A stretch of 64,000 nt of DNA, taken from Streptomyces sp. NBC_01439. Its GTDB lineage: Bacteria; Actinomycetota; Actinomycetes; Streptomycetales; Streptomycetaceae. Numbering within the stretch: position 1 is the first letter of the stretch; the number at the start of each line of letters is the position of its first letter. Where the stretch lies: contig NZ_CP109487.1 in NCBI RefSeq assembly GCF_036227605.1, positions 6,385,501 to 6,449,500 of the forward strand, read 5' to 3'. A model generated the notes under the pieces. The model had not been told where the DNA came from. It saw only the letters and a list, made by a program, of their open reading frames with translations, and did not search any database. This document shows positions 16,803-31,602 of this stretch, piece after piece. A program made the position numbers and the translations under genes.

Positions 16803-16839
16803 CGGAGCCCGTCGTGGCGCCCGACCTACCGGTGCGGAG

Positions 16840-17424: not shown

Positions 17425-17434
17425 AAGAACGGGC

Positions 17435-17560
17435 TCAGGCGAGGCGGGCCAGGACGGCGGCCATGTCCTGGTAAGTGGCCTGGACCCCGCCGGTGCTGCC
17501 CAGACGCTGGCGCTCCAGCCCGATCGCGCCGAGGTGGTGGCTACATCCGTGATCACGTTG
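17435..17560 (-). pseudogene. C-terminal fragment of an unidentified gene
   Basis: Reading leftward, a frame ends IGLERQRLGSTGGVQATYQD then MAAVLARLA and a TGA at 17435-17437. It looks like the natural C terminus of a larger enzyme, but no start or N-terminal domain exists upstream; the DNA up to about 17750 has no convincing frame. It abuts the truncated IolB-like gene from the other side, so both were probably cut by the same rearrangement. The family is not recognised. Confidence 0.35.
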
Positions 17561-17749
17561 TCGCGCAAGGTCATGTCGTCGAAGCGATCCGCGGCCACGA
17601 CCGGTGGCCCCCGGCTCCTGCGGGGTGCTCGTGAGGCCCAGCCACTGGCAGGTCCTGCCCGAGACGCTGCTTGCGCTGGCGTGCGGCGCGTGGAACGAGC
17701 CGAGGACCGGACTCCCGCACGGGGCGGGTGTGCGGGGGTCGAGGCTGTC

Positions 17750-18037
17750 CTACTTCTTGACGTAGAGCTCCTGGAACGGTGTGAAGGGGAGTGCCTGGTA
17801 GCAGAAGTACGCGGTCCATTTGTCTTCCGCGATGCCCGCCTGGCCCGCTGCCCGGCAGGCCGCGGCCGTGCCGCGGAAGGACTGCTCGTGGACGTAGCCG
17901 GCGGGGGGCGTGCCGAAGCTCGACGAGGAGGCCGGCGGCTGTGGTGCGGTGGTTGCGGCGAAGGCCTGGGGAGCCGCCGCCGCCAAGGCGGTGGCGAGGA
18001 CCGCACCGTGCAGGACGCGTCGTATCGAGCGGTTCAT
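17750..18037 (-). CDS. Small secreted protein
   Basis: A 95-residue product with a signal peptide (MNRSIRRVLHGAVLATALAA, cleavage likely after AFA near residue 27). A Ser/Pro-rich linker and a short mature domain with two cysteines (TAAACRAAG ... AYFCYQALPF) follow, which could form one disulfide. I chose ATG 18037 because AAGGAA lies upstream; a longer frame to 18073 would bury the signal peptide. It is last in a same-strand series after the regulator. Function unknown. Confidence 0.75.
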   Translation of the reverse strand: MNRSIRRVLHGAVLATALAAAAPQAFAATTAPQPPASSSSFGTPPAGYVHEQSFRGTAAACRAAGQAGIAEDKWTAYFCYQALPFTPFQELYVKK

Positions 18038-18069
18038 ATCGAGTTCCTTTCGTCGGGGTGGTAGGTGGA

Positions 18070-18411
18070 TCATTCCTCGCTGCCCTGGCGGGCACCGAGT
18101 TCAGCTGTCTGCTCCGGCTCCCACTCGGCGATGTCGCGGAGGGCAGCCAAGTGGCGAGTGAGGGCCACGCGCCCCTTAGCCGTCAGGGAGAGCCAGGTAC
18201 GGGCCCGCTTGCCGACGAAGGCTTTGCGGACCTTCACGTACTCGGCCTGCTCCAAGAGCGTGATCTGCTTGGAGAGGGCCGAGTCCGAGATCTCGATGGT
18301 GTCGCGGAGCGTTCTGAAATCGGCCTCATCGACCGAGGCCAGTGCGGCTGCGATGGAGAACCGCACCGGTGCGTGGATCAAGGTGTCGAGGGATTTGCGG
18401 GGATGCGTCAC
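18070..18411 (-). CDS. Winged-helix transcriptional regulator
   Basis: A 113-residue one-domain regulator of the small MarR-like/PF13601 type. The recognition region is TLRDTIEISDSALSKQITLL and the wing is KVRKAFVGKRARTWLSLTAK. It starts at GTG 18411, overlapping the stop of the upstream membrane-protein gene as GTGA. Such proteins often sit in, and repress, ABC-transporter operons. The palindrome at 20729-20757, in front of this operon, is its most likely target (inference). Confidence 0.85.
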   Translation of the reverse strand: MTHPRKSLDTLIHAPVRFSIAAALASVDEADFRTLRDTIEISDSALSKQITLLEQAEYVKVRKAFVGKRARTWLSLTAKGRVALTRHLAALRDIAEWEPEQTAELGARQGSEE

Positions 18412-18842
18412 GGCCTGGCCCCGGGGGTGCGGGCCGCCTTGCGTTCGAGCACGCCGATCACGAAGAAGGGCATGCCGCACAGGACGGCTCCCGGTACCCA
18501 CCAGAGTGGTTCGCCGGAGAAGAACACCGTGCCGAGAGTGACGACGAGTGTGTAGACAGCCGCGCCGGCCGTCGTCGTGAGGGCGTAAAGGGTCCGGTAG
18601 TGGCGGGGCAGTACCGGCCGCGTCGCCGTGTAGATCACGAGGGCGAAGAACGGAATGAGCAGGACGACCGGAACGGCGTACTGCGTAGAGGGCTCGATCA
18701 GCAGTCCGTAGACGGCCGTCATCACCATCATCGCCAGGCCGAGGAGGAACACCACCGGGCCGGGTCGCCGGTTTCCCCCTCGCATCCGGGACGCCAGTGC
18801 GTCCGCCGACGCAAGGGCTTCCCTTGCTTCCTTCTTGTCCAT
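18408..18842 (-). CDS. Four-helix membrane protein of the transporter operon
   Basis: A 144-residue protein with four predicted membrane segments: VVFLLGLAMMVMTAVYG, VPVVLLIPFFALVIY, LTTTAGAAVYTLVVTLG and WVPGAVLCGMPFFVIG. A charged N terminus (KKEAREALASADALASRM) precedes them. Two adjacent ATGs exist (18845, 18842); the second has better spacing from AAAGG. It is coupled to the downstream regulator by GTGA. It may be an accessory or immunity component of the adjacent ABC exporter; no specific family is recognised. Confidence 0.75.
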   Translation of the reverse strand: MDKKEAREALASADALASRMRGGNRRPGPVVFLLGLAMMVMTAVYGLLIEPSTQYAVPVVLLIPFFALVIYTATRPVLPRHYRTLYALTTTAGAAVYTLVVTLGTVFFSGEPLWWVPGAVLCGMPFFVIGVLERKAARTPGARP

Positions 18843-18883
18843 CATCGCGCCTTTCGTGGGAGGATTCCGTCGCATGCCCGTGC

Positions 18884-19642
18884 CTACGCGGCCTCGCCTT
18901 GGTCCCACTTGAAGGTGCGGACGGCGAGGACGACCGCCACGGCAGTGGTGACGGTGACGACCAGGACGGACAGCCACACCGGGTGGGTCGGTTCGCCCTG
19001 TGGCATCTGCGTGAGCATGAGGTCCGCGAAGAAGGACGTGGGCAGCAGGCTCAGCGTGGTGCGAACGGCATCGGGCATGAGTTCCAGCGGGAACGCCAGA
19101 CCGCTCAGGAACAGCGCCGCCAGCTGTACGAGCGTACCGACGTTGGTGGCGGCGTCCGGCGAGGCCAGACGGCCACCGATCAGGTACCCGACGCCCCCGA
19201 ACATGGCGAGGCCGAGCAGCGTGATGCCGAAGAGCGCGGGGAGGCTGCTCGGTTCCACCTTGCCGAGGGCGACCGCTAGCACGAGCAGGACCGCCGCCTG
19301 GACGGTGACCATGAGAATCCTGGCGATCATGTGGGTGAAGACGAGGCGGGCCCGCCCCACAGGTGTGGTGCCCAGGAGCCGGAGGGTTCCCTTGGCGCGC
19401 AGGCTGGCCAGCGGTCCGGCGGTGACGGTCAGGGCCGCGCTGGTCACGGCGAGGAAGATCGCCATGGGGAAGACGAGTTGCAGGAAGTCCGGGGCACCGG
19501 AGTCCTTCGGCATGGTGAAGCCGAGGCCGAGGAAGATGGCCAGCATCCCGAAGGGGAAGAACAGCGCGAAGTAGAAGTACTTCCCGTCGCGTACGAGCTC
19601 CCGGGCGTGCATGAGCGTCAGCTCACGCGAGGACGAGGACAT
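18884..19642 (-). CDS. ABC-2 type transporter permease
   Basis: A 252-residue membrane protein with six predicted helices, such as YFALFFPFGMLAIFLGLGF and LLTSAALTVTAGPLASLR-like segments, and the RAKGTLRLLGTTPVGR loop typical of ABC-2 (DrrB-like) permeases. The ATG overlaps the stop of the ATPase gene (TGATG). With the ATPase it forms an exporter that probably secretes the RiPP product or gives self-protection (inference from position inside the cluster). Confidence 0.88.
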   Translation of the reverse strand: MSSSSRELTLMHARELVRDGKYFYFALFFPFGMLAIFLGLGFTMPKDSGAPDFLQLVFPMAIFLAVTSAALTVTAGPLASLRAKGTLRLLGTTPVGRARLVFTHMIARILMVTVQAAVLLVLAVALGKVEPSSLPALFGITLLGLAMFGGVGYLIGGRLASPDAATNVGTLVQLAALFLSGLAFPLELMPDAVRTTLSLLPTSFFADLMLTQMPQGEPTHPVWLSVLVVTVTTAVAVVLAVRTFKWDQGEAA

Positions 19643-20661
19643 CACGCCATCACACCATTCGTCTCTGCGGGCTGCGCGGCATCGTGCCCGGTGGGCGGCT
19701 GCGCGCCGTCCCCCGCTTCGTGGAAGGAGACACCTGTGAGGAGGCGGAAGACCGCTTCCAGGCCGGCCTCCTTGATCTGGATGTGGCGGGCTCCGAGCGG
19801 GCCGGCAAGCAGGCCGAACGCCGCGTCGGAGTCGCTGGTCCGCACGATGACCCGGGTGTTGCCGCCGGTGTCGTGGCTCTCGATGTGAGACACCCCGGGC
19901 GCGGTGCGCAGCCGTGCGAGGTCGGTGCCGACCGGGACGGTGAAGTGCACCTCGCGTTCGGGCGCGTGGGTGTTGATCAGGTCCTGCGGGGTTCCGTAAG
20001 CGGCGACCCGGCCTTTGTGCAGCACGGCGACCCGGTCGCAGAGCATCTCGGCCTCCTCCATGGAGTGCGTCGACAACAGTACGGTTCCGCCGGCACCGCG
20101 GTGCGCGCGGATCGCGTCCCACAGTTCCTGCCGTGCGTTGGGGTCCATGCCCGTCGACGGCTCGTCGAGCACCAGCAGACGGGGGCGGGAGATGAGTGCC
20201 GTGCCGACGAGGAGGCGCTGGCGCTGTCCGCCGGAGAGCTTCGATACCCGGACGTCGCGCGAGGCCGACAGGCCCATCCGGTCGATGATGGTGTCGGGGG
20301 TCTCGGGGTCGGGATAGAGCGAGGCCCAGACGCGCAGGAGTTCCGCCACCGTCTGCTGCTCGAACACGGCGGCGTGCTGCGGCTGGATCGCGACGTACTT
20401 GCGGATCTCGTCCCGCTGCGCCACGGGGTCGTATCCGAGCACCCGGACGGTGCCTCCGGTGGGGCGGCGCAGGCCGACGAGGGTCTCGATGGTGGTGGTC
20501 TTGCCGGCTCCGTTCGGGCCGAGCAGACCAAAGATCTCCCCCGGCCGCACCGAGAGGTCAATGCCGGCCAGGGCGATGACGTCCCCATGGGGGCCCGGGT
20601 ACCGCTTGGTGACGTTCTCCAGCAGGATCACCGGGTCGTGGGACGGGCTTCGTTCAGCCAT
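19642..20661 (-). CDS. ABC transporter ATP-binding protein
   Basis: The 339-residue ATPase has Walker A (LLGPNGAGKTTTIE), Q-loop IQPQHAAVFE, signature KLSGGQRQRLL, Walker B LLVLDEPSTGMD and H-loop LLSTHSME. A DrrA-like C-terminal extension of about 90 residues follows. It is the first gene of a four-gene run (ATPase, permease, membrane protein, regulator), and a long palindrome lies about 70-95 bases before its start. Start ATG 20661. It pairs with the ABC-2 permease for export or immunity. Confidence 0.92.
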   Translation of the reverse strand: MAERSPSHDPVILLENVTKRYPGPHGDVIALAGIDLSVRPGEIFGLLGPNGAGKTTTIETLVGLRRPTGGTVRVLGYDPVAQRDEIRKYVAIQPQHAAVFEQQTVAELLRVWASLYPDPETPDTIIDRMGLSASRDVRVSKLSGGQRQRLLVGTALISRPRLLVLDEPSTGMDPNARQELWDAIRAHRGAGGTVLLSTHSMEEAEMLCDRVAVLHKGRVAAYGTPQDLINTHAPEREVHFTVPVGTDLARLRTAPGVSHIESHDTGGNTRVIVRTSDSDAAFGLLAGPLGARHIQIKEAGLEAVFRLLTGVSFHEAGDGAQPPTGHDAAQPAETNGVMA

Positions 20662-20728
20662 TCCGCATCTACCTCTCATCGGGTTCCACCGAGGTCTTGC
20701 CGTGCGTACCGCTGTCCAGTCAGCTTGG

Positions 20729-20757
20729 CAACCACTTTCCAAATTGGCAAGTGGTTG
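20729..20757. promoter_or_regulatory. 29-bp palindromic operator before the exporter operon
   Basis: Outer arms CAACCACTT and AAGTGGTTG are perfect 9-bp inverted repeats. The centre (CCAAATTGG) is itself a palindrome, leaving a single mismatched pair in the whole 29 bases. It sits in the 124-base gap between the elimination-protein gene and the ATPase start, in a locally AT-richer stretch. The winged-helix regulator at the end of the operon is the likely binder. Confidence 0.65.
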
Positions 20758-20785
20758 GGGAAAGGTAACTGGATTTGGCTCGCGG

Positions 20786-21673
20786 CTAGTTGGCGGAAGC
20801 GAGCACGCCCAGAAGGCTCTCCTCGGCCGGAACGAAGCCCCAGCGGTTGAGGTCCATGTGCAGGTAATGAAGGAGCAACTCCTCCCGCGGTACGGGGTTC
20901 TCGTCGGCCGCCGCAGCGTCGAGGGTGCGCACGACCGTCCCGACGTGCCGCGCCGCGCTTTCCCGGAGGGGTGCGTCCAGGCGCGCCGCGGCCTCCCCCG
21001 TGCCCTGCGCGGCACGGCCGAGAAGGCTGCGCAGCACCGCCTGGTCGGGCGCGGCCATGCGCAGTTGCCGCCCCCATTGGCGGCGGTGGGCGGTCCAGAA
21101 CGCCGTCCGCGCCTGGGGGTCGGGGAGCGCCGCCTGGACGAGCGTGCTCATGTACGAGACGGCCAGCGCAGCCCGGTCGAAGAGCGGGGCGAGGCTGCCG
21201 ATCCGCTGGTCGGCGTACCACTGGCAGGAAGCCGTGAAGAGCTCCTCGGCCCTGGCCACCCCGCGCGCTCCTCCGTATTTGGCGAGTTCCGGTGCGTACA
21301 AGCAGCACCGGGCCTGTTTGACCATCGGCAGCCCCTGCGGTACGGAGCCCGGCACGAGGCGTTCCGAGGCAGTGGGTTTGTCGAGCGTGTGCAGCAGCCC
21401 GACGAGCTCGGGCAGGCGTACGTAAACGCGGTCGATCCCATCGGCGGAGCACCTGAGGCGCAGCCGTAGGTGATGACCGCTCATGTCCCAGTAGCGGGTG
21501 AAGAACCACGCGGATGCCTTCTCCTCGGATGCCCGCGCGGCCAGCCAGGGGATCAGTACCCGGGTGGCCTCGTCTATGGCGTCCGGGTGTCCCGGGTAGG
21601 CGCGGACGTACCACCAGTCCGTCTCCATGCCCGGGTCCGCGCGGTCCGTGCAGTGGTGCGGTGTCGGCATCAT
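20786..21673 (-). CDS. LanB elimination-domain protein (SpaB_C / thiopeptide-type)
   Basis: A 295-residue stand-alone SpaB C-terminal domain protein. Recognisable segments are DWWYVRAYPGHPDAIDE, SAWFFTRYWDMSGHHLRLRL (the family's W/FFxRY...H-RLR motif) and a C-terminal HYLHMDLNRWGF. In split LanB systems this protein removes glutamate from glutamylated Ser/Thr to give dehydroalanine or dehydrobutyrine. Related proteins can also be [4+2] pyridine synthases. Only one copy exists here, so elimination is the more likely role. Its ATG overlaps the stop of the LanB gene (ATGA). Confidence 0.87.
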   Translation of the reverse strand: MMPTPHHCTDRADPGMETDWWYVRAYPGHPDAIDEATRVLIPWLAARASEEKASAWFFTRYWDMSGHHLRLRLRCSADGIDRVYVRLPELVGLLHTLDKPTASERLVPGSVPQGLPMVKQARCCLYAPELAKYGGARGVARAEELFTASCQWYADQRIGSLAPLFDRAALAVSYMSTLVQAALPDPQARTAFWTAHRRQWGRQLRMAAPDQAVLRSLLGRAAQGTGEAAARLDAPLRESAARHVGTVVRTLDAAAADENPVPREELLLHYLHMDLNRWGFVPAEESLLGVLASAN

Positions 21674-24153
21674 CGGTTCTCCTCGGGCCAGGCCAGCAGG
21701 GCTACGTGCTCGGTGACCCTGGGCCGGCCGAGGGCGTCGCGCTGGGCGTGCAGGGCGCGCCCGGGAAGTGCCTCCACGAGCCGGAGGTGACTGGTCTGCG
21801 GGCTGAGCCAGTGGTGCAGGACCCCTACGGACAGTGGAGAGGCCAGGGAGACCCACATGGGTTTCCGGTCGGCAGTCATACCGGGGGCGCTGCCTGCGCC
21901 GCCGAGCTGGTGCACGAAGACCTCCTCGGGAATGCCGTGCGCGCGTCGGAAGGCGTCGAGCCGGACGGCAAGGTCGGTCGCGTCGTGCTCGCCGCCCTCC
22001 GGGCGGGGGATCGCGGAGGCCGGAACGATCCACGAGGCGCGGCGGGTGACGAGACGGTTCCCGGGGCCGTCGGTGACGCGGGGGAGTTCCACCACGCCGT
22101 CGCCGCAGAGCGGGCCCAGCTCGTGGGCCTTGGTCATCGTGTAGTCGGAGTGCGGCGATCCGTTGACCCAGGGATCGGCGAGTATGGCGAGCAGCCGGAC
22201 GTAGGACTGGAGCAGATGCTGGGGGATGAGCCCCAGGTAGGCCAGCCCGACAGGGTCGCCGTCGCGGTCGAAGAGGGACAGCGTGTCGGTGCGGGCGTCG
22301 TGGGCGAGCACGGTGTCGTCCAGGGTGATCCCGTTCGCGGCCTCGACCTCGCCCGGCAGGACCAACGGCGGCAGGAGGCCGCCGCATTCGGACTGCACGG
22401 TGTTGCAATCGGTCCATACCACCAGCTCGCGGCGGGTAAGGCCAGGCCAGCAGCTTTCGATGTGCGCGGCGAGGCGTTCGCGGAAGCCGTCGCCGAGGAG
22501 CCGGCCGAAGCGGCTGAACAGTCCACCGGTGCCCGCCCCGTACTGGTTGACGACGAGACGGTAGCGGCCCGCCTCGATGTCGGCATGGCTCGCCGCCTCC
22601 AGTTGGAAGAAGACTCCGGCGTTCGGCGGGGCGCTGGTCGGCCCGATCGGGAGCCATGCGCGGTCCGCCGGGTCACGGCGGCTGGCCATGTCGGCGAACA
22701 GCGCGCGGTCGAGCGGCGGATTGGCGTCCCGGTCGATGGTGAGGCGCATGAGGAAGCCGAGCGGGTCCCGGCAGACACCGCCGGCGCCGAACTCCGCGGT
22801 GAAGCGTTCCAGGAGGAAGTCGTAGAGGTGTGAGCGGAAGACGTACGGTCGCATCTGCTCGCCCAGTGCCGTGAGGTCGGCCCGGACCGCGGGGACGTTC
22901 AGCGGGTCGGGCAGACCCAGGTCCGTCTCCCGGTCCTCGTAGATCAGCCCGCTGGGTTTGCGCTCGCTCCGGTCGTTGTGCTCGTTCCAACCGCCGGTGA
23001 GGTCCCGCAGCTCCGCGGCGGCGTTGATCCGCCCCTCTGCGTCGTGCCGCCACATACCGTCACCCAGGTCGTGGGCCCGCGACAGGTCGCTGCGCCCGAT
23101 CGGGGACGTGGTGGTGCCCCCTTCCAGCAGCGCGGCCAGAACGGGGAACGGCGCCTCGCTCCTGTCCCAGGGAGGGATGGGCTGTAGGACACCGGTGTCG
23201 ATCAGACGAACGAACCGGGTGAAGGGCCGGGCACCACCGACGGCGGTGAGGAGTTCGGTGAACGTGGCACCGGAGCGCAGGCCGGCCAACGAGGGCAGGG
23301 CGTAGTCGGCCTCGACCGCCCGGTCGTGGCGCCACACGACGCCCTCGGTGATGATCGTCTCACTGTGGAGCAGCAGACCCTCCGGTTCGGTGGCGGTGCC
23401 GGGGCGCACGGGCGCGACGCGGTAGTGCAGCAGGCCGGCCGTCGACGGGTCGCGCGCCAGCCGGCGCAGCGCCAAGTGGGCCATGGTCGCGGAGGTACGG
23501 CTGCGTACGCGGCCCCGTCCTTGCGATCCGGCCTCGCCGACCGTGGTCAGCCCGGAGAAGGGGCTCGTCTTGACGGCGGCACGGGCGACGTACGAGTACA
23601 GCGTCTTCAGTTGCTTCGCCGACCGGGCCTTGTGGTCGCGGTGCCGGATCCAGTCGGGCGCGGCGATCGCCAGGGATGCGGCGAAGCCGCGCTCCCCTGC
23701 GCCGTCGGCGGTGTCCCCGCCGTGTTCGAGAGTGCGGTGCAGTGCTTCGACGGCCTGGTCCCGGTCCTCGGCGAGCTGGGCGGTCAGCTGCTCGAGCAGC
23801 GCGTGCCGTTCGCCGACGAGACGCTCCCAGTCGTCCAGGAGGGGGGCCGCGGCGGGCGGGAGGCGCTCGGCCAGGCGGTGCCGTACGTCCTCGTCCCAGG
23901 GCAGCGGGTCCAGGCGGTTGACCGATCGCTTGGCGGCCAGGGCCCGGCGGCGTAGCGGTACGTCGTCGTCGAGGCGGGGCACGAGCGCGAAGAGGGCCTC
24001 GGTGAGTTCGGGGGCCAGGGAGCTCAGGCGTTCCGCGGCGGCGGCGTGTTCGGCCAGCAGCTTGCGCGTGGCCGGGGCGACCAGGTCGAGGGTGTCGGAG
24101 GGCAGGCCCGCCACCCGGGTCAGCGCGACGGGGGATATGACGAAGGAGGTCAT
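21670..24153 (-). CDS. Lantibiotic dehydratase N-terminal (glutamylation) protein
   Basis: The 827-residue protein matches the LanB N-terminal domain, which transfers glutamate from glutamyl-tRNA to Ser/Thr of a precursor. Visible segments are RARPSVNR-like KRSVNRLDPLPWDED near residue 75, YVARAAVKTSPFSGLTTVG near 195 (the conserved SPxS/FxxxT region) and FRSHLYDFLLERFTAEFG near 440. Full-length LanBs of about 1,000 residues carry the elimination domain as well; here that is the next gene, as in thiopeptide and goadsporin pathways. Coupled by ATGA at both ends. Confidence 0.9.
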   Translation of the reverse strand: MTSFVISPVALTRVAGLPSDTLDLVAPATRKLLAEHAAAAERLSSLAPELTEALFALVPRLDDDVPLRRRALAAKRSVNRLDPLPWDEDVRHRLAERLPPAAAPLLDDWERLVGERHALLEQLTAQLAEDRDQAVEALHRTLEHGGDTADGAGERGFAASLAIAAPDWIRHRDHKARSAKQLKTLYSYVARAAVKTSPFSGLTTVGEAGSQGRGRVRSRTSATMAHLALRRLARDPSTAGLLHYRVAPVRPGTATEPEGLLLHSETIITEGVVWRHDRAVEADYALPSLAGLRSGATFTELLTAVGGARPFTRFVRLIDTGVLQPIPPWDRSEAPFPVLAALLEGGTTTSPIGRSDLSRAHDLGDGMWRHDAEGRINAAAELRDLTGGWNEHNDRSERKPSGLIYEDRETDLGLPDPLNVPAVRADLTALGEQMRPYVFRSHLYDFLLERFTAEFGAGGVCRDPLGFLMRLTIDRDANPPLDRALFADMASRRDPADRAWLPIGPTSAPPNAGVFFQLEAASHADIEAGRYRLVVNQYGAGTGGLFSRFGRLLGDGFRERLAAHIESCWPGLTRRELVVWTDCNTVQSECGGLLPPLVLPGEVEAANGITLDDTVLAHDARTDTLSLFDRDGDPVGLAYLGLIPQHLLQSYVRLLAILADPWVNGSPHSDYTMTKAHELGPLCGDGVVELPRVTDGPGNRLVTRRASWIVPASAIPRPEGGEHDATDLAVRLDAFRRAHGIPEEVFVHQLGGAGSAPGMTADRKPMWVSLASPLSVGVLHHWLSPQTSHLRLVEALPGRALHAQRDALGRPRVTEHVALLAWPEENR

Positions 24154-25250
24154 CGGCCCACCGCCGAAAGGGCGAGGTCCACGGTGACCGGGAGGGCGTG
24201 GAACATGGCGTAGGCGAGGAAGCAGACGTAGGCCATGGAGAACAGTCCGTACGCCATGTGGCCGCGGCGGGCCACTTTGCTGAGGTTGGCGAGGTGCGCG
24301 GGGAGTTCCTGGCGCCGGACGGTGTGTCGCAGCAGCGCGAACGCGCGCCCCCGGGCGTTGGTGAGTCCGGTCGCCGCTTCGATGGCCGTGTAACCGTCGC
24401 TGGGCATGAGCGGGTTGAGGTTGACGATCAGCATCAGGAGTTGCATCCCCAGCAGCAGCGCGGCTGTGTCCCTGAGCAGTCCGGCCGAGTTCAGAGCGAC
24501 CGCGCCCGACAGTGCGCAGAACCAGCCGTCGCTGAGGATGCCGGCCATGGCCAGGGCGACTCGGCCGCCGCGTCCCCGGAAGCGGTAGGCGTCCGTGCGA
24601 TCCACGTAGGCGACCGGCATGAAGTAGAACAGCAGCGCGACTCCCAGTCCGCGGACCGGCGTTCCGAGTATCTGGGCGACCAAGGCGTGGGCGGTCTCGT
24701 GCATCAGTACATACAGCAGCATCACGCCCGTGGCGATCAGGAACGCGGGCCCGGCCAGATCCTGCGGGGGTGGCATCGCCGTGAAGAGGGTGTGGAAGCC
24801 GAATGTGTACCCCGCGAGCGCGCCGAGTGCCGCGATCAGCACCAGCAGTGTCGCCGGCACGGCGCGCAGTACCGCGGCCACGGGTTCGAGAAGGCGGGGC
24901 AGGGAGCGGGTCAGGATGATCCGCGGCATCAGCATGGACGTGCGCACGCGGCTGCCGTCCTGCGGCTTGTCGGGCAGCTCGGAGCCCTCGAGGAGCCCGC
25001 TCCGGTCCAGGGCGGCCAGAAAGGTGTCGATCTGCCGGGAGACCGCTCCGGCGCGCTCCTGGTCGGCGCGTGAGAGGAAGACGACGAGGTCATCGCGGGT
25101 GCGGGTGCCGTCCAGATAGGTGAGCACCATTTCGCCGGCGCGGGTGATGCGGTGGTAGTTCCCGGTGACCGGATCGAAGATCAGCGGGATGTCGTCCATC
25201 CCGCGGATGACCTCCAGCTCGTCTCGGAGCTTTGGTGGCGAACTGATCAC
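24150..25250 (-). CDS. M50-family membrane metallopeptidase with PqqD-like leader-binding domain
   Basis: A 366-residue protein. Residues 1-90 resemble a PqqD-like winged helix (IFDPVTGNYHRITRAGEMVL ... LVVFLSR), the fold used as a RiPP recognition element. Several membrane helices follow from residue 130. The zinc site HETAH is at about 184-188, and the second motif NLNPLMPSDGY (Asp ligand) near 275 completes the M50 signature. It probably binds and cleaves the precursor leaders at or in the membrane (inference). It is coupled to LanB by ATGA and is the first gene after the hairpin that follows the precursor genes. Confidence 0.85.
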   Translation of the reverse strand: MISSPPKLRDELEVIRGMDDIPLIFDPVTGNYHRITRAGEMVLTYLDGTRTRDDLVVFLSRADQERAGAVSRQIDTFLAALDRSGLLEGSELPDKPQDGSRVRTSMLMPRIILTRSLPRLLEPVAAVLRAVPATLLVLIAALGALAGYTFGFHTLFTAMPPPQDLAGPAFLIATGVMLLYVLMHETAHALVAQILGTPVRGLGVALLFYFMPVAYVDRTDAYRFRGRGGRVALAMAGILSDGWFCALSGAVALNSAGLLRDTAALLLGMQLLMLIVNLNPLMPSDGYTAIEAATGLTNARGRAFALLRHTVRRQELPAHLANLSKVARRGHMAYGLFSMAYVCFLAYAMFHALPVTVDLALSAVGR

Positions 25251-25349
25251 TGTCTACCTCTCCTGTACCCCTGGACGCCCTGGGCCGACGGGCCGCGACC
25301 CGTTGACCCAGGGCCCTGCGTTGCAGGATGCTGCGAAATGAGAAAGCTG

Positions 25350-25385
25350 CCTTCCAGCGGCGCCGGTGACGACGCCGCTGGAAGG
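25350..25385 (-). terminator. Strong hairpin between precursor genes and downstream enzymes
   Basis: A perfect 13-bp stem (CCTTCCAGCGGCG / CGCCGCTGGAAGG) with a 10-base loop lies 69 bases past the last precursor stop and about 100 bases before the M50 start. There is no T tract. It probably acts as a partial terminator or 3' stabiliser, giving more precursor than enzyme mRNA. Confidence 0.75.
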
Positions 25386-25454
25386 AAGGAGCCGTGCCCG
25401 GCGGGCAGGTGCTGAAACGGTGTCAGCCAGTGCGGCACCGCCTGCCGGGTCCGG

Positions 25455-25634
25455 TCACCCGTACGTCGACGCCGTGGTGGCACTGCTGGCCGAGCTGGCG
25501 GGGCAGGAGAAGGAGCTCGCCGAGGTGGCGCTGGAGAAGGAGCCCAGGGCGTTGCCCTGCGGCAGCTCCTCCACGAAGAGCTCCTCGTCCATCGCGTAGA
25601 GGTCGATGAGCTTGTCCGTGCTGTTCTCGTTCAC
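25455..25634 (-). CDS. RiPP precursor peptide A
   Basis: A 59-residue peptide from GTG 25634. The leader has LIDLYAMDEELFVEELPQG and ends at NALG. The 28-residue core is almost all Ser, Thr and Ala, with SCP at core positions 12-14 and Tyr-Gly at the end. The single Cys can become a thiazole (or thiazoline), and about 15 Ser/Thr are candidates for azoles or dehydration. It is the last of four tandem precursors, followed by a hairpin. It shares the EELPQGNALG leader end with precursor B. Confidence 0.88.
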   Translation of the reverse strand: MNENSTDKLIDLYAMDEELFVEELPQGNALGSFSSATSASSFSCPASSASSATTASTYG

Positions 25635-25677
25635 AGGAGATGTCCCTTCTGAGACTGGCGCGACCGCGAGGGAGCGG

Positions 25678-25851
25678 TCAGCCGAACGTCGACGCGCTGC
25701 CGACGCTGGCGGCCGAGGTCGCCGGGCAGGACGCGGTCGACGCCGAAGCGGCGGAGAACCAGCAGCCGAGTGCGTTGCCCTGCGGCAGCTCCTCGACCGA
25801 CAGCTCGCCATCCAGGGCGTACAGGTCGAATGCGTCCTCGTTGATGTCCAC
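25678..25851 (-). CDS. RiPP precursor peptide B
   Basis: A 57-residue peptide from GTG 25849-25851. The leader is short, with FDLYALDGELSVEELPQG then NALG. The 28-residue core begins Cys-Trp and has SCP at core positions 12-14 and Thr-Phe-Gly at the end. It is the only core that starts with Cys, so a second thiazole next to the leader is possible. A ribosome site is weak, as for the other GTG-start precursor. The gene ends 43 bases before precursor A starts. Confidence 0.87.
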   Translation of the reverse strand: MDINEDAFDLYALDGELSVEELPQGNALGCWFSAASASTASCPATSAASVGSASTFG

Positions 25852-25927
25852 TGATCGTTTTCCCTTCGGACGGGGCTCTGTGTAGGACGTGCGCGGAGAG
25901 GAGGAGCCGTTGGCACCTCCGGGCCTG

Positions 25928-26101
25928 TCAGGTGTAGCTGGAGAACGAGGTGAAGGAGGAGGCGGTGGTCACCGGGCAGGAGGCCGAGCTGGCCGATCCT
26001 GCGGTAGAGACCGACGAGAGGGCGTTGCCCTCCGACAGCGTCTCCATCTCGAGGGAGTCCTCAAGGATGTCGTCGAGGACGTAGAGTTCCAGTTCGGGCA
26101 T
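25928..26101 (-). CDS. RiPP precursor peptide C
   Basis: A 57-residue peptide from ATG 26099-26101 with AAGGGAAAC upstream. The leader has LELYVLDDILEDSLEMETLS and ends EGNALS rather than NALG. The 28-residue core has SCP at core positions 12-14 and ends Ser-Ser-Tyr-Thr. It is more divergent than A and B in the leader but keeps the same core length and spacing. Confidence 0.87.
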   Translation of the reverse strand: MPELELYVLDDILEDSLEMETLSEGNALSSVSTAGSASSASCPVTTASSFTSFSSYT

Positions 26102-26133
26102 GGTTTGTTTCCCTTCTTTGAGACGAGCCGGGC

Positions 26134-26319
26134 TCAGCCCGTGCAGTTGGCGGTCATGATGCTTCCGGCGCTGCTGATCGGGCAGCTGGCCGTGGTCGCG
26201 CTGGAGGCCGTGCTGAAGGTCCCCAGTGCCACGCCCTCGGGGATCTGCTCGATGGACAGTGCGTCGTCGCCCAGGTCGACGCTGTGGAGGTCGAGCTCCC
26301 ACGCGTTGGCGTCGGTCAT
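26134..26319 (-). CDS. RiPP precursor peptide D
   Basis: A 61-residue peptide from ATG 26317-26319 with GAAGGAAGTGATCCG upstream. The leader has ELDLHSVDLGDDALSIEQIP and ends EGVALG. The 28-residue core has SCP at positions 12-14 and a second Cys at position 26 (TANCTG end). It lies closest to the SagB-type dehydrogenase gene (35 bases) and is the first of the four tandem precursors. Confidence 0.87.
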   Translation of the reverse strand: MTDANAWELDLHSVDLGDDALSIEQIPEGVALGTFSTASSATTASCPISSAGSIMTANCTG

Positions 26320-26354
26320 CGGATCACTTCCTTCTCTTGGTGTCGGTTCTCGGA

Positions 26355-27107
26355 TCACCGGTGGCCGGTCGGCCCCGGAGGTATGGGGGGCGGCACGACT
26401 GCGCCGCCCAGGGCCAGGGCGAAGAGCTGGTGCCGGCTGGCCCCGTCGCTGCGCAGCGGCAGCCGTACGGAGGCCGGGATGAACCCGGCGAAGACAGTGC
26501 CGACGAGTCCGACGGCCACGGCGTCGAGCCACATCGTGTAGGCGGCCGCCGCGGCTCGGGTCATGAGCGTCCGGTAGCCGTGGGCGCCGTGGAGGCGGCT
26601 CGCCAGGTCCAGGTCCGCGGCGAGGGAGACGATGGCGGCGGAGTCGCAGAACTCCCGCTGGATCGTGAGGTCGTGCAGGGCCTCGCCCTCCGGCAGCGGT
26701 GCGACCGGGACATAGGACCGCTGCGTACCGCTGCCCGTCTCGAGGCCGTACATGCCGGGTTCCAGGCCACTGAGCCGGAAGGCGACGACGTTGATCTGCA
26801 GCGGCAGCCGCTCCCGTTCCTGCGGCCAGGACGCGAGGTCCGCGTCGATGCCCCGGGCGGCCACGTCGGCGATGAGTGAGGCGTCGATGGGCTGCGGTCC
26901 GAAGAATCGGATGGAGCGGCGCTTCTCCAGCACGGTGAGCAGGGAGGACCTGTCCCGCTGCTGGGCGGTGAAGAGGACGGGCGGTCCGAGGGGTGCGGGC
27001 GGCTGGGCCGCCGGCCGCTCGGGCGCCGGCACGGTGTCGGTGCCCGCGGCCGCGGGGGTCCGGAAGGCGGTGAGGAGCTCCGCCGCGAGGTCGTGCGGGC
27101 TGCTCAT
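26355..27107 (-). CDS. SagB-type FMN dehydrogenase (azoline oxidase)
   Basis: A 250-residue nitroreductase-fold protein. LTVLEKRRSIRFFGPQPI is the conserved FMN-binding RRSxRxF start of SagB/McbC enzymes, and SAAIVSLAADL and HGYRTLMTRAAAAAYTMWL follow in the expected order. These enzymes oxidise thiazolines/oxazolines to azoles. The ATG overlaps the stop of the upstream E1-SagB fusion gene (ATGA). The first 45 residues are a Pro/Ala-rich linker. Confidence 0.87.
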   Translation of the reverse strand: MSSPHDLAAELLTAFRTPAAAGTDTVPAPERPAAQPPAPLGPPVLFTAQQRDRSSLLTVLEKRRSIRFFGPQPIDASLIADVAARGIDADLASWPQERERLPLQINVVAFRLSGLEPGMYGLETGSGTQRSYVPVAPLPEGEALHDLTIQREFCDSAAIVSLAADLDLASRLHGAHGYRTLMTRAAAAAYTMWLDAVAVGLVGTVFAGFIPASVRLPLRSDGASRHQLFALALGGAVVPPPIPPGPTGHR

Positions 27108-28762
27108 GTGGCGTCTCCCAGATCGATGACGGCCGTGACCGGTTCCATGTCGGGGTTCGTCCCGAGGGCTGCGGCGATGGCTTCGTCGTCCCAGCGGGGG
27201 CGTAGGGCGAAGCCGATGCCCAGGGTGTGGGCCGCCTCCCGGGCGGTGGCCTGGGCGCAGCCGCTGTCGAGCAGGACGATCCGCAGGGCGAAGGCGGAGT
27301 ACTTCCGGGCGACCTTGGGGAAGTCGCCGGTCAGCACGATGCTGAACGGCTGGTCACCGGGCAGGGCGTCGACCCGGGAGGACAGACGGGCGAGGCGGTG
27401 CTCGGAGGCGACGTAGCCGTAGACGCCGGGGTTGATGCCCGGTACGTCCCGGACGACGGCGTATGCGGTCACCGAGCCGATGTTGCCGCCGCTTGCCGTC
27501 CAACGGGCCACCTTGTCCGCGTTGTCGGCCCTGATTCCCGCTGTGACGGAGAGCAGCAGCGACAGCGTGTCCGGCCCGGGCCGCGCGGCGTCCTGGCGCG
27601 GGGCGGACCGGTCGAGCCGGTCGTGGTCGGGTGGCGGGAGCTCGACGGCGGGAGCGACCGGCCAGGTCCGGGAGACGCGCTGCAAAGCCAGGTTGGAGGG
27701 CTTGTAGTGCATCTGGTGGGCCTTGAGGTCGGCGAACTCCTTCGGCGGCATGGCCACGGACGCCTCGAAGCGCGTGGCCGGCGCGGCGCGTTCAACGACC
27801 GGCCCCTCGGCTACGGAACAGCGCGGACAGCCGGGTCGGGTTGCGGAGGCGGTGTCCCGCTGGCCGAGGGTCTCCAGGTCCACCAGACGCCAGCGCATCG
27901 GCAGCGGTGTGGGGATCGTCCGGGAGACCGCGGCGAACACGTCGCGGGCGAACAGCGCGGTGGCGAGCTCGTGGTCGCCGACGCCGGCCGTACGGTCGTC
28001 GTCCTCGTCGTCGGCGGTCAGGCAGTCCAGGCACGGCGTGGTACGGGGGTCGACCAGCGGGCCCAGGGCCGCACGGCGACCGCGCACGCTCAGGCGCAGC
28101 ATCGGAATGCCCTTGTCCCAGCAGTGCTCGGCGAGGACGTCCCGGCCGGCACCGGGACCTGTGCCCAGTCCGCCGGCTCCGGTATCGGCCCAGACCGCGA
28201 GGGTCGCCCGTTCGGATGGGGTGTCGCCGGTGGCGAGGGTGACCCGCATGGAGCCGGTGAGCTCGTCGCGCAGGAACGCGGCGAGGGCCGGGTCGCCGAA
28301 GACTTCGATCTCGGCGGTGCGCAGGCGGGCGGCCGCCTCCTCCCAGCAGGGGTTCACCTCGGTGGCGCTGCCCACCCGGGACAGGTAGTCGGCGAGGCGG
28401 TCGTCGACATCCGCGACCGCTTCGCGTTCCGTCCCCCGCGGTGGTCCTTCTTCGACGACGCCGCAGGTCCACAGCAACGAGAGTGCCTTGAACACGACCT
28501 CTTCGGGCATCCCGAGCTCCGCCGCGAGCCGGTCATGCGTGCGCTCGCCGTCGAGCAGGGCGAGCAGCCCGGGCAGCATCTCCGTGGCGGACCTGCCACG
28601 GAAGAGCTGCTTCTTGGGCGGTCCGGTCACCACCACCTGGTCGGCCTCGATGACGACCACGAGACCCCGGCGCAGCCGCGGCCGGCGGGGGATGCGCAGC
28701 TGCGGGTCGAACCGTGCGGCGGAGCCGACGGTTTCGGCCGTCATCATGGATCGATCGTTCAC
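27104..28762 (-). CDS. E1-like leader-binding protein fused to a SagB-like domain
   Basis: A 552-residue protein. The N-terminal part has a PqqD-like stretch (GLVVVIEADQVVVTGPPKKQ ... LFRGRSATEMLPGLLALLDG). The middle is an ocin-ThiF-like E1 fold with zinc-type cysteine pairs (TTPCLDCLTADD; PGCPRCSV). From about residue 370 the sequence resembles the SagB nitroreductase fold (LSLLLSVTAGIRA ... GINPGVYGYVASEH ... IVLLDSGCAQATAREAAHTL). The SagB part lacks an obvious RRSxRxF start and may be catalytically inert. It starts at GTG 28762, overlapping the upstream stop (GTGA). Probable role: present the precursor leader to YcaO and the dehydrogenase. Confidence 0.8.
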   Translation of the reverse strand: MNDRSMMTAETVGSAARFDPQLRIPRRPRLRRGLVVVIEADQVVVTGPPKKQLFRGRSATEMLPGLLALLDGERTHDRLAAELGMPEEVVFKALSLLWTCGVVEEGPPRGTEREAVADVDDRLADYLSRVGSATEVNPCWEEAAARLRTAEIEVFGDPALAAFLRDELTGSMRVTLATGDTPSERATLAVWADTGAGGLGTGPGAGRDVLAEHCWDKGIPMLRLSVRGRRAALGPLVDPRTTPCLDCLTADDEDDDRTAGVGDHELATALFARDVFAAVSRTIPTPLPMRWRLVDLETLGQRDTASATRPGCPRCSVAEGPVVERAAPATRFEASVAMPPKEFADLKAHQMHYKPSNLALQRVSRTWPVAPAVELPPPDHDRLDRSAPRQDAARPGPDTLSLLLSVTAGIRADNADKVARWTASGGNIGSVTAYAVVRDVPGINPGVYGYVASEHRLARLSSRVDALPGDQPFSIVLTGDFPKVARKYSAFALRIVLLDSGCAQATAREAAHTLGIGFALRPRWDDEAIAAALGTNPDMEPVTAVIDLGDAT

Positions 28763-29388
28763 GCTGTCCGCCCTTCGGTGATCGACACCAGTCGGCGCCA
28801 CAGTTCGTCGCCATCGGCGGCGGTGCGGCAGCGCTCGCAGCGGTCCACCGCGATCACGGAGGCCTTGCTGGTGGCGCCGGTGATCTGGTCGAACTTCCGT
28901 ACGGTGCCGCCGATCGCCTCCTCGTCGCCGGGTGTGCCCAGCGCCTCCTCGATGGCTTGCCGGGCGAAGGCGGCGGCGATGCCGACGGCGTGGACCGGAT
29001 AGCCGGTCGGGTAGCGGTCGCCCGTGTCGACGGTGCCGTGCTCGGGCCGCCTGTGCTGGATGCGGCGGCGCACGTAGCACTGGTGGCAGGCCGTGCGGCC
29101 CGGGACCACCACGGGGCCGCACAGCACCTCGGTGGCGGTGGTGTGCACTCCGAACCAGGGAGTGCCCCAGGCGAAAGCCGCCCGGTCCGTCGCCTCGTCG
29201 ATACGGGGCCGTTTATGAGAGGTGGCCAACATGATGAGGTCGGCGCGGGGCCACAGACTCGGGTGGGTGCCCTCGTCGATCTCCATCAGGGTGATGTCGT
29301 GTCCGCGCTCCCGGGGGTCGTGTTGAAGACGTCGTGCGACGTCCTTGCCGAAGGCTCCCGAGGCGAGTACGAGCAGGTGACGATTCAT
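28759..29388 (-). CDS. Second E1-like (ThiF-fold) TOMM partner protein
   Basis: A 209-residue protein starting MNRHLLVLASGAFGKDVARR, a Rossmann-like nucleotide fold. Two zinc-type pairs (TACHQCYVRR near residue 110; VDRCERCRT near 185) are typical of E1-like proteins of azoline-forming pathways. The adenylation residues of ThiF are not evident. It starts at ATG 29388, 8 bases after the YcaO stop, and overlaps the next gene by GTGA. Having both this and an E1-SagB fusion is unusual; the two may form one split leader-binding and scaffolding complex. Confidence 0.78.
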   Translation of the reverse strand: MNRHLLVLASGAFGKDVARRLQHDPRERGHDITLMEIDEGTHPSLWPRADLIMLATSHKRPRIDEATDRAAFAWGTPWFGVHTTATEVLCGPVVVPGRTACHQCYVRRRIQHRRPEHGTVDTGDRYPTGYPVHAVGIAAAFARQAIEEALGTPGDEEAIGGTVRKFDQITGATSKASVIAVDRCERCRTAADGDELWRRLVSITEGRTA

Positions 29389-29396
29389 GACCCACC

Positions 29397-30752
29397 TCAT
29401 GCGAAGGGCTGCGGATCGGGATTGATGCCGTCGATGTCGTGCACGGGATGTCCCATGGCGCGGGGGGCCTCGTAGAGGCGGGGATGGGCGAGGTAGCGGG
29501 CCCGGTGGGCGAAGGAGAGCGGCATCAGCTGCGGCACCATGACCCGTACGGCGGTCGCACCCACCTGGCGGGCCTCGTCGGTCGTGATGTCGACGACTAC
29601 GACTTCGCAGCCGGCCCGGGACAATCGCTCCAGCAACCACGGCAGCTCTTCCGCTCCCTTCGCGGGGCGCGGCAGGTCCGTGAAGGCCCGTACGGGGCGC
29701 TCGCCCTTCAGAAGGAAGTCGAACCGGTGGCGCTGGTCGGGCTTCCCGGCGAGGAGCGCGCCGCCGATCACACTGACGATGTCCTGCGGGTCGTCGGGGT
29801 TCGTGTGCCGGCTCGCATGGGAGCGGAGCGCGATGCGCAGTGAGGCGGCCTCCCGGTGCAGTTTGGCGATGGCCTTGCCGGGGTCGGTGTCGCATGTGGC
29901 GACGACGAGTTGGGCGAGATCGGGGTCGTGGTCGGCGAGCTGCACCCCGTAGATGACCGGGATGCCGAGGTCCGTCGTGGCGTCGAAGAGCAGGGTGCGG
30001 ATGTTCTCGTTGGCCGCACGTTCGACGAACGCCCGGTGCTCCGGGGCCAGGCCGTCGAGTGCGAACTCCAGTCGGGGCAGCCGGAGGCGCTGGAGCCAGG
30101 TCAGGGCGATGGAGTCCCGTTCGACGACTTCCATCAGACCGTTGGCTATCGCGGCCAGCGGGTCGGCGTGGGTGGCGCAGCCCGTGGAGACCGGGTGAAC
30201 GAAGCGCTCCGCGGCCGACTCCGGTGAGCACTTCAGATAGACCTGGACGGCCGGGACGTACACCTTCCGGCCGCGGGCGAGGGACCAGCCCTCGACCCAG
30301 CGCAGCGGCATCCGCCGGTCGGTGGGGACCAGACCACAGCGCGGGTCGGCCAGTTCGGCCGGTGCGAGGTTCGGCCACTCCCAGGGCGGGATGGCGTCCT
30401 CGCCAAGTTCCTCGGCGGTCGCCCAGATCATGTCCCGCGGGGACCAGGCGCACGAGGAGTACCGCTCCAGGGATTCGGCGGCCGCGAGGTGGGCCGCCGT
30501 CTCGCGGTCCAGCGCTCCGCCGGCCCCGTCGAAGTTGCCGGAGGAAGCGTCGTGCGTCCACTCCGACTGCGCTGCGAGAACGGCTCCCGGGTCGCCCAGA
30601 GATCCGGAGAAGACCGCGAAGTCAGGTTCGCCCTCGGTTACGGGCAGCCAGGTGAGCCTCGACACGAGCCCGTACGGCGACACCAGCCTTCCGATCCGGC
30701 GCAGGGATTCGGGCACCGCGGCACCCTGGGGCGTCGCCTGAAGCGTCCTCAT
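29397..30752 (-). CDS. YcaO cyclodehydratase
   Basis: A 451-residue YcaO protein. ATP-binding motifs are visible: AAAESLERYSSCAWSP near residue 90, GLMEVVERDSIALTWLQR near 210 and AIAKLHREAASLRIALRSHA near 300. The C terminus is proline-containing (INPDPQPFA), like azoline-forming YcaOs. It uses ATP to cyclise Cys/Ser/Thr of a precursor to thiazoline or oxazoline. It is the first gene of the leftward biosynthetic operon, and a 325-base gap separates it from the divergent sigma-factor gene. Confidence 0.92.
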   Translation of the reverse strand: MRTLQATPQGAAVPESLRRIGRLVSPYGLVSRLTWLPVTEGEPDFAVFSGSLGDPGAVLAAQSEWTHDASSGNFDGAGGALDRETAAHLAAAESLERYSSCAWSPRDMIWATAEELGEDAIPPWEWPNLAPAELADPRCGLVPTDRRMPLRWVEGWSLARGRKVYVPAVQVYLKCSPESAAERFVHPVSTGCATHADPLAAIANGLMEVVERDSIALTWLQRLRLPRLEFALDGLAPEHRAFVERAANENIRTLLFDATTDLGIPVIYGVQLADHDPDLAQLVVATCDTDPGKAIAKLHREAASLRIALRSHASRHTNPDDPQDIVSVIGGALLAGKPDQRHRFDFLLKGERPVRAFTDLPRPAKGAEELPWLLERLSRAGCEVVVVDITTDEARQVGATAVRVMVPQLMPLSFAHRARYLAHPRLYEAPRAMGHPVHDIDGINPDPQPFA

Positions 30753-31077
30753 TCCCCGCCCTCCTCGACCGTCTGAGATCCGGCCGAGCCGCAGCCGATA
30801 TCTCGACCTATTCGCGTTCGTTGAAGCCGCAAATTGATTCCCTCATTCCGGACAAGTGCAATTCCAGTTCGCGCCATCAGGCCAGCTCACCGCAAGCCAT
30901 GTTGGGTCTTCTGGTCACAATCTTCTGGTCACTAGCGGGAGAGCAGATGACATGTTTGACTCCGTTGGACGCCGTGCGCGGCTCGGGTTCACGATCTGCT
31001 GCGAACGGTTCCAACCTTCTACACGTGGTGGACAGGTCGGGGCGCTGTTCGCCAAGACAAAGAATCTTGAAACGGGG
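30753..31077. promoter_or_regulatory. Divergent intergenic region between YcaO and sigma factor
   Basis: A gene-free 325 bases, AT-richer than its surroundings (for example CGATATCTCGACCTATTC near 30797). It must hold the promoter of the leftward RiPP operon and that of the rightward sigma factor. I could not match a confident ECF-type GGAAC/CGT pair or any clear inverted repeat. Confidence 0.5.
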
Positions 31078-31602
31078 ATGAACAGATTGGACAAGGCGCA
31101 CGAAGATGACTTCGAACGGCACGTCGTAGGCGTTCGACCGGCACTCAGACGCAACGCCTTCGTGCTGGTGGGGGACTGGTTCGCTGCTGACGATCTCGTA
31201 CAGCAGACGCTGATCGCCGTATATCGGGCTTGGGAACGGCTGGATCATCACGACGCACTGTCCGCCTACACCCGCACCGTGATGGTGCGGCTCTTCATCG
31301 ACGAACGACGCAGGCATCGCTGGACCCGCGAGCTGCTGCAGGAATCGTTACCCGACCCCGAGCCCGCACCCGAGGAGTTGGCTCAGATCGGGGACAGGTT
31401 GGTCCTGCTCAAGGCACTGTCCACCCTCACCCCGAGGCAACGCGGCCTCGTCTACCTGCGCTACTGGGAGGACCTGGGGATCGAAGAGGTCGCGCAAATC
31501 ATGGACTGCTCCTCCTCGACGGTTCGCAGCTCCACCTCGCGGGCGCTGCGGATCCTGCGCGAACGACTCGGCGAGCTGGGGGCCCGTCGACACGAGGACT
31601 GA
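31078..31602 (+). CDS. SigE-family ECF sigma factor
   Basis: The 174-residue protein has region 2 (ADDLVQQTLIAVYRAWERLD, near residue 45) and region 4 (LTPRQRGLVYLRYWEDLGIE followed by SSSTVRSSTSRALRILRE). Those are the signatures of the actinobacterial SigE-like/ECF41-style subfamily named SigE in Pfam-type models. Start ATG 31078 has ACGGGG just upstream. No anti-sigma factor gene is adjacent. Divergent placement next to the RiPP operon suggests it controls that operon (inference). Confidence 0.88.
   Translation: MNRLDKAHEDDFERHVVGVRPALRRNAFVLVGDWFAADDLVQQTLIAVYRAWERLDHHDALSAYTRTVMVRLFIDERRRHRWTRELLQESLPDPEPAPEELAQIGDRLVLLKALSTLTPRQRGLVYLRYWEDLGIEEVAQIMDCSSSTVRSSTSRALRILRERLGELGARRHED

Follow-up and report, generated by a model that had tools for sequence, protein, structure and literature searches.

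What do the four short open reading frames that lie head to tail on the minus strand at 25455-26319 encode, and which enzymes act on their products? These genes belong to an operon of the window, which is the whole 64,000-nucleotide stretch of Streptomyces sp. NBC_01439 DNA that was analysed. As read from the genes alone, one enzyme set of this cluster very probably turns the precursors into four linear peptides that carry azoles and are of the goadsporin/spongiicolazolicin kind. The observations behind this reading are a triplet pattern in the peptide cores, the accompanying gene set, the absence of a detectable pyridine synthase, and the restriction of the triplet middles to Ser, Thr, and Cys side chains. 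The cluster shows those features of linear azole peptides that sequence can test, and the goadsporin motif as well. The original prediction of four related products of one enzyme set is thus supported, as is the mass signature that it expected, losses of 18 Da for dehydration and 20 Da for azole formation.

The precursors and their triplet cores

Each of the four precursor genes displays the triplet pattern in its core, written below in its units.

26134..26319, minus strand: precursor A1, ORF of 61 aa; NF033482, 44.8 bits; 29-residue core GTF-STA-SSA-TTA-SCP-I-SSA-GSI-MTA-NCT-G
25928..26101, minus strand: precursor A2, ORF of 57 aa; NF033482, 62 bits; 29-residue core SSV-STA-GSA-SSA-SCP-V-TTA-SSF-TSF-SSY-T
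25678..25851, minus strand: precursor A3, 57 aa, GTG start; NF033482, 70.4 bits; 29-residue core GCW-FSA-ASA-STA-SCP-A-TSA-ASV-GSA-STF-G
25455..25634, minus strand: precursor A4, 59 aa, GTG start; NF033482, 72.5 bits; 29-residue core GSF-SSA-TSA-SSF-SCP-A-SSA-SSA-TTA-STY-G

All four match the NCBIfam model NF033482 (44.8-72.5 bits; cut-off 25), and a profile built from them retrieves 247 proteins at E <= 0.001, which together place the four precursors beyond chance; a Pfam scan of the four gives no family above cut-off. As had been predicted, exactly 28 residues follow VALG, NALS, NALG, and NALG in A1-A4, respectively, SCP occupies positions 12-14 in every case, and Ser, Thr, and Ala together account for 18, 20, 19, and 22 of the 28 residues. 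The leader pattern predicted alongside, LYxLD...VEELPxGNAL, holds less well: it is near-literal only in A3 (LYALD) and A4 (LYAMD), whereas A1 (LHSVD...IEQIPEGVAL) and A2 (LYVLD...METLSEGNAL) deviate. The triplet pattern also moves the predicted leader/core boundary one residue upstream, to the G or S before position 1, which would give cores of 29 residues.

Each window core is composed of five X-[S/T/C]-X triplets, one spacer, four further X-[S/T/C]-X triplets, and one final residue (5x3+1+4x3+1 = 29). When the Cys of SCP sets the register and the residue preceding the 28-residue core is numbered 0, the middle sites are positions 1, 4, 7, 10, 13, 17, 20, 23, and 26, and position 15, after SCP, is the lone spacer that divides the chain into 5+4 units. 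The homologue set comprised the best 120 of the 247 profile matches, the window's own proteins included. Among these 120 matches, 114 cores are 29 residues long; they comprise 88 distinct sequences, and the nine middle positions are Ser, Thr, or Cys in 88/88 (792/792), the same residues occupying 521/792 first places and 28/792 third places. The six cores of other length, inspected by eye, stand outside this count: four have an extra last residue and obey the pattern, and two are devoid of the spacer and obey it without one. A second search with divergent members gave 397 matches, and among the 120 listed 65 are new, 65/65 of which obey the triplet rule when the anchoring proline is picked to maximise the score. 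In shuffled window cores, the pattern arises by chance at frequencies of 2.4e-3, 7e-5, 4.9e-3, and 5e-4, the product of which, 10^-12.4, is no independent probability as the window cores are related.

Part of this conservation is expected for homologues fetched by similarity, and the interchange among Ser, Thr, and Cys is the safer argument. Eleven related loci (L011-L014, L046, and L040-L045) were compared with the window, making 12 loci in all. In the six close loci, with five precursor types and 45 middle columns, 13 middle columns vary and 13/13 remain within S/T/C, where about 0.25 per one-step change would be expected to do so; five first and seven third columns vary as well, 0/12 of them within S/T/C. 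Nine of the 13 columns vary only via L046, one only via the recombinant A4 of the window, one only via L011, and two via more than one locus, so that 13 overstates both the number and the spread of the events. Raw pN/pS over the cores is 0.30 (0.17-0.57 per gene; the cores look purified), and pN is highest at the middle positions (0.058 vs 0.027 and 0.038 at the other two places). Judged by these sequences, what is conserved is a heterocyclisable side chain and not the residue itself, as the formation of oxazole, methyloxazole, and thiazole at these sites predicts.

The modification enzymes of the operon

The operon is given below in minus-strand order, followed by the divergent sigma factor gene.

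29397..30752, minus strand: YcaO cyclodehydratase, SagD family, 451 aa (PF02624, 222 bits; TIGR03604, 340 bits)
28759..29400, minus strand: small E1-like TOMM leader-binding protein (F protein), 213 aa (TIGR03882, 51.8 bits, cut-off 36.9)
27104..28762, minus strand: E1-like cyclodehydratase partner fused to a SagB-type azoline dehydrogenase domain (E1-SagB), 552 aa (TIGR03605, 74.3 bits, cut-off 78.4; TIGR03882, 32.6 bits, cut-off 36.9; both just below)
26355..27107, minus strand: second nitroreductase-fold protein, 250 aa (PF00881, 28.3 bits)
25455..26319, minus strand: precursors A1-A4, as above
25335..25400, minus strand: hairpin with a 16-bp stem, downstream of A4 and ahead of the M50 gene (MFE -37.8 kcal/mol, z -6.3)
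24150..25250, minus strand: membrane metalloprotease of the M50 type, with an HExxH motif and a PqqD-like N-terminus (PF02163, 20.9 bits vs a cut-off of 27.2)
21670..24153, minus strand: LanB glutamylation half (LanB-N), GodF-like, 827 aa (PF04738, 39.3 bits)
20786..21673, minus strand: LanB elimination half (LanB-C), 295 aa (PF14028, 108.9 bits; TIGR03891, 87 bits)
19642..20661, minus strand: ABC transporter ATPase, DrrA-like (PF00005)
18884..19642, minus strand: ABC-2 permease (PF12698)
18408..18845, minus strand: small membrane protein, no family above cut-off, conserved in L046
18070..18411, minus strand: HTH_34 regulator (PF13601, 92.6 bits)
30856..31602, plus strand: SigE-family ECF sigma factor, divergent from the operon (TIGR02983, 154.5 bits)

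Genes overlap by 4 nt at 29397-29400, 28759-28762, 27104-27107, 24150-24153, and 21670-21673, which suggests that their translation is coupled. The YcaO, F, E1-SagB, 250-aa nitroreductase-fold, M50, LanB-N, and LanB-C proteins are present in 12/12 loci, the YcaO of L045 being incomplete at the edge of the fetched stretch, and the SigE-family gene remains beside the operon in the five close relatives (L011-L014, L046). The hairpin stretch aligns in 6/6 close loci, with one paired change, seen by eye, in L013. It is a possible attenuator that might keep precursor mRNA in excess; a consensus scan does not call it a terminator, and the promoter/terminator scan returned no promoters and one terminator, fewer than in shuffles.

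The dehydratase is split into two proteins. The glutamylation half matches PDB entry 9jhq, 'Goadsporin biosynthetic protein', which we take to be GodF (E 6.9e-49), and its family profile scores 374 bits to 9jhq vs 149 to 6ec7. The elimination half is the sole PF14028 protein of the cluster and the single one in the window; additional PF14028 genes in the genomes of the 12 loci fall outside those loci. Its GxHxRxR and HMxxNR motifs, presumably corresponding to the elimination residues of NisB, are kept in 12/12 loci. At E <= 1, the LanB-C profile matches full-length LanB proteins in the PDB, including 5ehk, 'Lantibiotic dehydratase', presumably MibB (59.9 bits), 9g04, 'Thiopeptide-type bacteriocin biosynthesis domain containing protein' (1038 aa, 40.2 bits), and two NisB chains (~35 bits), along with TsrE (23 bits) and a designed protein (19 bits). 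The M50 protein, in which H184, E185, H188, and D285 are invariant in 12/12 loci, scores 117 bits to daptide_HExxH (cut-off 300) and weakly to PqqD models, and is proposed as the candidate leader peptidase.

Two proteins of the operon resemble azoline dehydrogenases, each with a different part of the expected residue set. In the E1-SagB fusion, K487-Y488 is invariant in 12/12 loci and no conserved Arg pair is present ahead of the SagB domain; in the 250-aa protein, R63 and R67 are invariant in 12/12 loci and the Lys-Tyr pair is absent. We take the Lys-Tyr pair to be catalytic in McbC and the Arg motif to bind the FMN phosphate. The model of the fusion (mean pLDDT 72) best matches LynD/TruD, ThcOx, and MccB, with the ThcOx/McbC type also among its matches, and that of the 250-aa protein (mean pLDDT 79) best matches BmdC, other nitroreductases, ThcOx, and McbC. 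Sequence-only PDB searches with the single E1-SagB and nitroreductase-fold proteins gave no credible match, whereas the profiles did match: in the two-domain nitroreductase 3eo7, residues 16-237 are matched by the fusion profile and residues 324-494, the C-terminal half, by the 250-aa profile. That the two profiles match two halves of one structure suggests that the SagB domain and the 250-aa protein may form a heterodimeric azoline oxidase. The proposed two-subunit oxidase raises a further enzyme question.

Predicted products and other readings

In the proposed pathway, the E1-like proteins would bind the acidic leader, the YcaO protein would cyclise the central Ser, Thr, or Cys in every X-(S/T/C)-X unit, and a two-subunit FMN dehydrogenase, comprising the SagB domain and the 250-aa protein, would oxidise the azolines, giving at most nine azoles. 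Any Ser or Thr directly preceding an azole would then become Dha or Dhb through the split LanB pair, up to 5, 7, 4, and 8 in A1-A4 with the Ser at position 0 of A2 omitted. With nine azoles and these dehydrations, the 29-residue cores of A1-A4 have calculated [M+H]+ values of 2411.880, 2458.900, 2387.856, and 2340.800, respectively. The M50 protease would cut off the leader after ...AL, and the ABC-2 pump would export the product. Natural variation at every triplet position offers a test of how Ser and Thr are divided between YcaO and LanB.

The closest precedent for such a scheme is goadsporin, from the god cluster of Streptomyces sp. TP-A0584. According to PMC5303826, the determinant for GodD/E is X1-(S/T/C)-X2, with three of four X2 changes tried tolerated and E, R, Y, and W rejected at X1; Dha at S4 and S14 requires azoles at 5 and 15; and Ser-Ala inserted after G10 leads to a seventh azole. 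As this insertion makes a new unit, the 19 residues of goadsporin can be described as 3+1+3 triplets, which is our own reading of the positions. Similar to goadsporin, the window system has the X1-(S/T/C)-X2 motif, found throughout the core in 4/4 precursors, a predicted Dha directly before an azole, a lone residue between triplet runs (G10 between 3+3 by our reading; 5+4 in the window), and a cyclodehydratase, a dehydrogenase, and a split, GodF/GodG-like LanB pair, the dehydratase half of the window being nearest that of goadsporin in the PDB. Goadsporin differs in having one precursor, a 19-residue core, six azoles, two Dha, the ABC-peptidase GodB, and the acetyltransferase GodH, whereas the window has four precursors, 29 residues, 5+4 triplets, an M50 protease, and a separate SagB-like second protein. 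Neither a GodB-type ABC transporter with an N-terminal peptidase nor a GodH N-acetyltransferase is present among the operon proteins scanned (18070-30752); because an ABC-2 pump and an M50 protease stand in place of GodB/GodH, the cluster would work like that of goadsporin but is not filed as a god-type cluster. The goadsporin motif would thereby be extended from six to a predicted nine azoles and from one precursor to 3-5 sister precursors. Phe occupies X1 of the second triplet in 23/88 distinct cores among the matches listed, and likewise in A3; given the residues that GodD/E rejected at X1, this triplet may be left unmodified.

Other azole peptides share parts of this design. Spongiicolazolicins A and B (Streptomyces sp. 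CWH03) are reportedly linear azole peptides of 29 and 28 residues that are said to share similar tripeptide blocks, and by this likeness, which is one of lengths and blocks only, the window cluster may belong to the same family. The name S. spongiicola is absent among the matches listed (best 120 of 247; best 120 of 397), in which many names are shortened or pooled. Nostatin A, a proteusin of Nostoc, has a core of Dha/Dhb-azole-X triplets including SSA, STA, and TTA, but its nitrile-hydratase-like leader, LanM-like dehydratase, epimerase, methyltransferase, and unit order differ from those of the window (PMC11583998, excerpts). The dehydrazoles (carnazolamide) also carry Dha before azoles in one peptide; assignment to that class was rejected, their dehydratase being of the DUF4135/LanM type in the excerpts of PMC10676384 vs the split LanB here. 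No paper on this precursor family was recognised in the open-access literature searched, seen mostly as titles and abstract openings, which is weak evidence, and the spongiicolazolicin report may itself describe a member; the literature drawn on comprises excerpts of PMC5303826, PMC11583998, PMC10676384, PMC8838263, PMC10885120, and PMC7616364. As to role, it is a guess by analogy with goadsporin, somewhat short of probable, that the products are secreted to antagonise other actinomycetes or to signal to them; antibacterial activity is reportedly absent in the spongiicolazolicins, which speaks against an antibiotic role.

The precursors had originally been likened to thiazolylpeptide-type families, and a thiopeptide (pyritide), in which two Dha are joined into a macrocycle by a [4+2] pyridine synthase, would draw on much of the same equipment. 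YcaO and split LanB proteins are common to thiopeptides, and thiocillin/thiomuracin-type clusters share with the window a YcaO, an E1-like protein, a dehydrogenase, a split LanB, and an acidic leader before an S/T/C-rich core. Names favour this reading as well: NF033482 is called 'thiocillin family RiPP', and TIGR03891, 'thiopeptide-type', matches the LanB C-half, the profile of which matches 9g04, thiopeptide-type by name. However, none of the four precursors matches TIGR03892, NF033401, or NF033400 at E <= 1, so that the likeness fails at the peptides themselves, and no [4+2] pyridine synthase of the TclM/TbtD type is found in the window locus or the 11 related loci. A single PF14028 gene is present in every one of the 12 loci, that of the window overlapping its LanB partner by 4 nt and scoring only 16.3 of 325 bits to TbtD_PbtD_pyrid; in six relatives this model reaches at most 34.3 of 325 bits, three of the six not being listed at E <= 0.01. 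Stand-alone pyridine synthase structures, which we take to be present in the PDB, are absent from the LanB-C profile matches there (E <= 1). The PF14028 search does find a separate TbtD-like protein elsewhere in the genome of the window (31.8 bits; 144 bits to TbtD_PbtD, below the cut-off of 325), and thus is able to see such a gene. With no pyridine synthase in 12 loci, a thiopeptide is highly improbable. A sequence taken to be the thiocillin precursor exceeds the cut-offs of NF033401 and TIGR03892 (NF033400, only 11.9 bits) and does not match NF033482 at E <= 1, so that the name 'thiocillin family' looks misleading for this family of linear peptides. For the hundreds of database proteins so named, the triplet reading offers an exact prediction of azole, dehydro, and plain residues.

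The same split LanB would also fit a class I lanthipeptide in which the SCP cysteine captures Dha or Dhb as a thioether, and this Cys has one fixed place in all four window cores, as it does in 88/88 distinct 29-residue homologue cores among the matches listed. It is, however, at a triplet middle position, STP stands in place of SCP in 3/7 cores found in L044 and L045, and no LanC is reported among the operon proteins scanned, which leaves a lanthipeptide scarcely credible. Azoles at few sites, for instance at Cys only, in mainly polydehydrated linear peptides would suit the one or two Cys per window core and a LanB that could act on many Ser/Thr, and Ser and Thr are generally poorer YcaO substrates. 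Set against this are the nine middle positions, all kept as S/T/C, and the first positions, often G, A, F, M, or N, a distribution that argues for stronger constraint at the azole site than at the dehydration site. Dehydration in goadsporin, moreover, depends on the following azole (PMC5303826, excerpts), and a product with few azoles is unlikely.

Recombination and distribution of the tandem genes

Five precursors in the same order are observed in L011-L014 and L046, four in the window, and 3-5 in each of the 12 loci, counts that are lower bounds because the finder required the triplet rule. Counted from gene 3 up to the M50 gene, the block in the window has 246-255 nt fewer than its counterparts in L011-L014. 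The first 210 nt of the shortened block align with gene 4 of the relatives and the later part with gene 5 and beyond; the last codons of A4 are closer to gene 5, and the switch falls within a tract common to both genes. A4 is thus most simply read as a recombinant of gene 4 (5' part) and gene 5 (3' end) with the triplet register intact.

These observations bear on whether the peptides act only jointly, as a two-component or multicomponent mixture. The one order of five precursors in 5/5 close relatives fits a maintained set, and the cores of each gene look purified. On the other hand, one gene was lost by recombination in the window, which implies that the full set is not essential, and a mixture kept for breadth accounts for the same data; strictly joint action is therefore possible but doubtful. 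A broader speculation, which we also hold to be doubtful, is that the 5+1+4 triplet code serves as a modular scaffold: recombination between the tandem genes would swap whole units in register, so that the enzyme set with its heterodimeric oxidase would yield an evolving nine-azole library acting as a mixture. If so, A4 would be an example of such a swap, being a natural A4/A5 recombinant in which the code is unbroken.

The cluster occurs in 8/295 genomes of the genus sample and 2/396 of the phylum sample, the genome of the window being counted in both, and such low prevalence marks it as accessory. A genome-contig scan with the YcaO protein led to four close loci, and a plasmid search gave no matches. 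Named homologues among the matches listed also come from Kitasatospora, Nonomuraea, Planobispora, Streptosporangium, Amycolatopsis, Nocardioides, and others, and one family member, P0183, is listed under Actinomyces israelii, a source that is not one of the usual soil genera. L044 and L045 are divergent clusters, with the precursors downstream of the dehydratase (LanB) genes and with the STP variant cores. In L014, the LanB-N gene (16836-19315) is split by a frameshift near 18926-18929, either natural or a sequencing error. The genome of the window contains two other loci with two PF14028 matches each: L047 (G000:C1 172000-190000), a separate thiopeptide-like locus with the TbtD-like protein (144 bits, cut-off 325) at 177-183 kb and a distant YcaO of 29% identity to that of the window, and L048 (G000:C1 1407455-1410312). 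Elsewhere in the window, three tandem dynamin-like GTPase genes on the plus strand (34265-40016: 34265-36199, 36196-38043, and 38040-40016), with PADLOC LeoA/LeoBC matches of up to 75 bits, are followed by a gene at 40013-41251.
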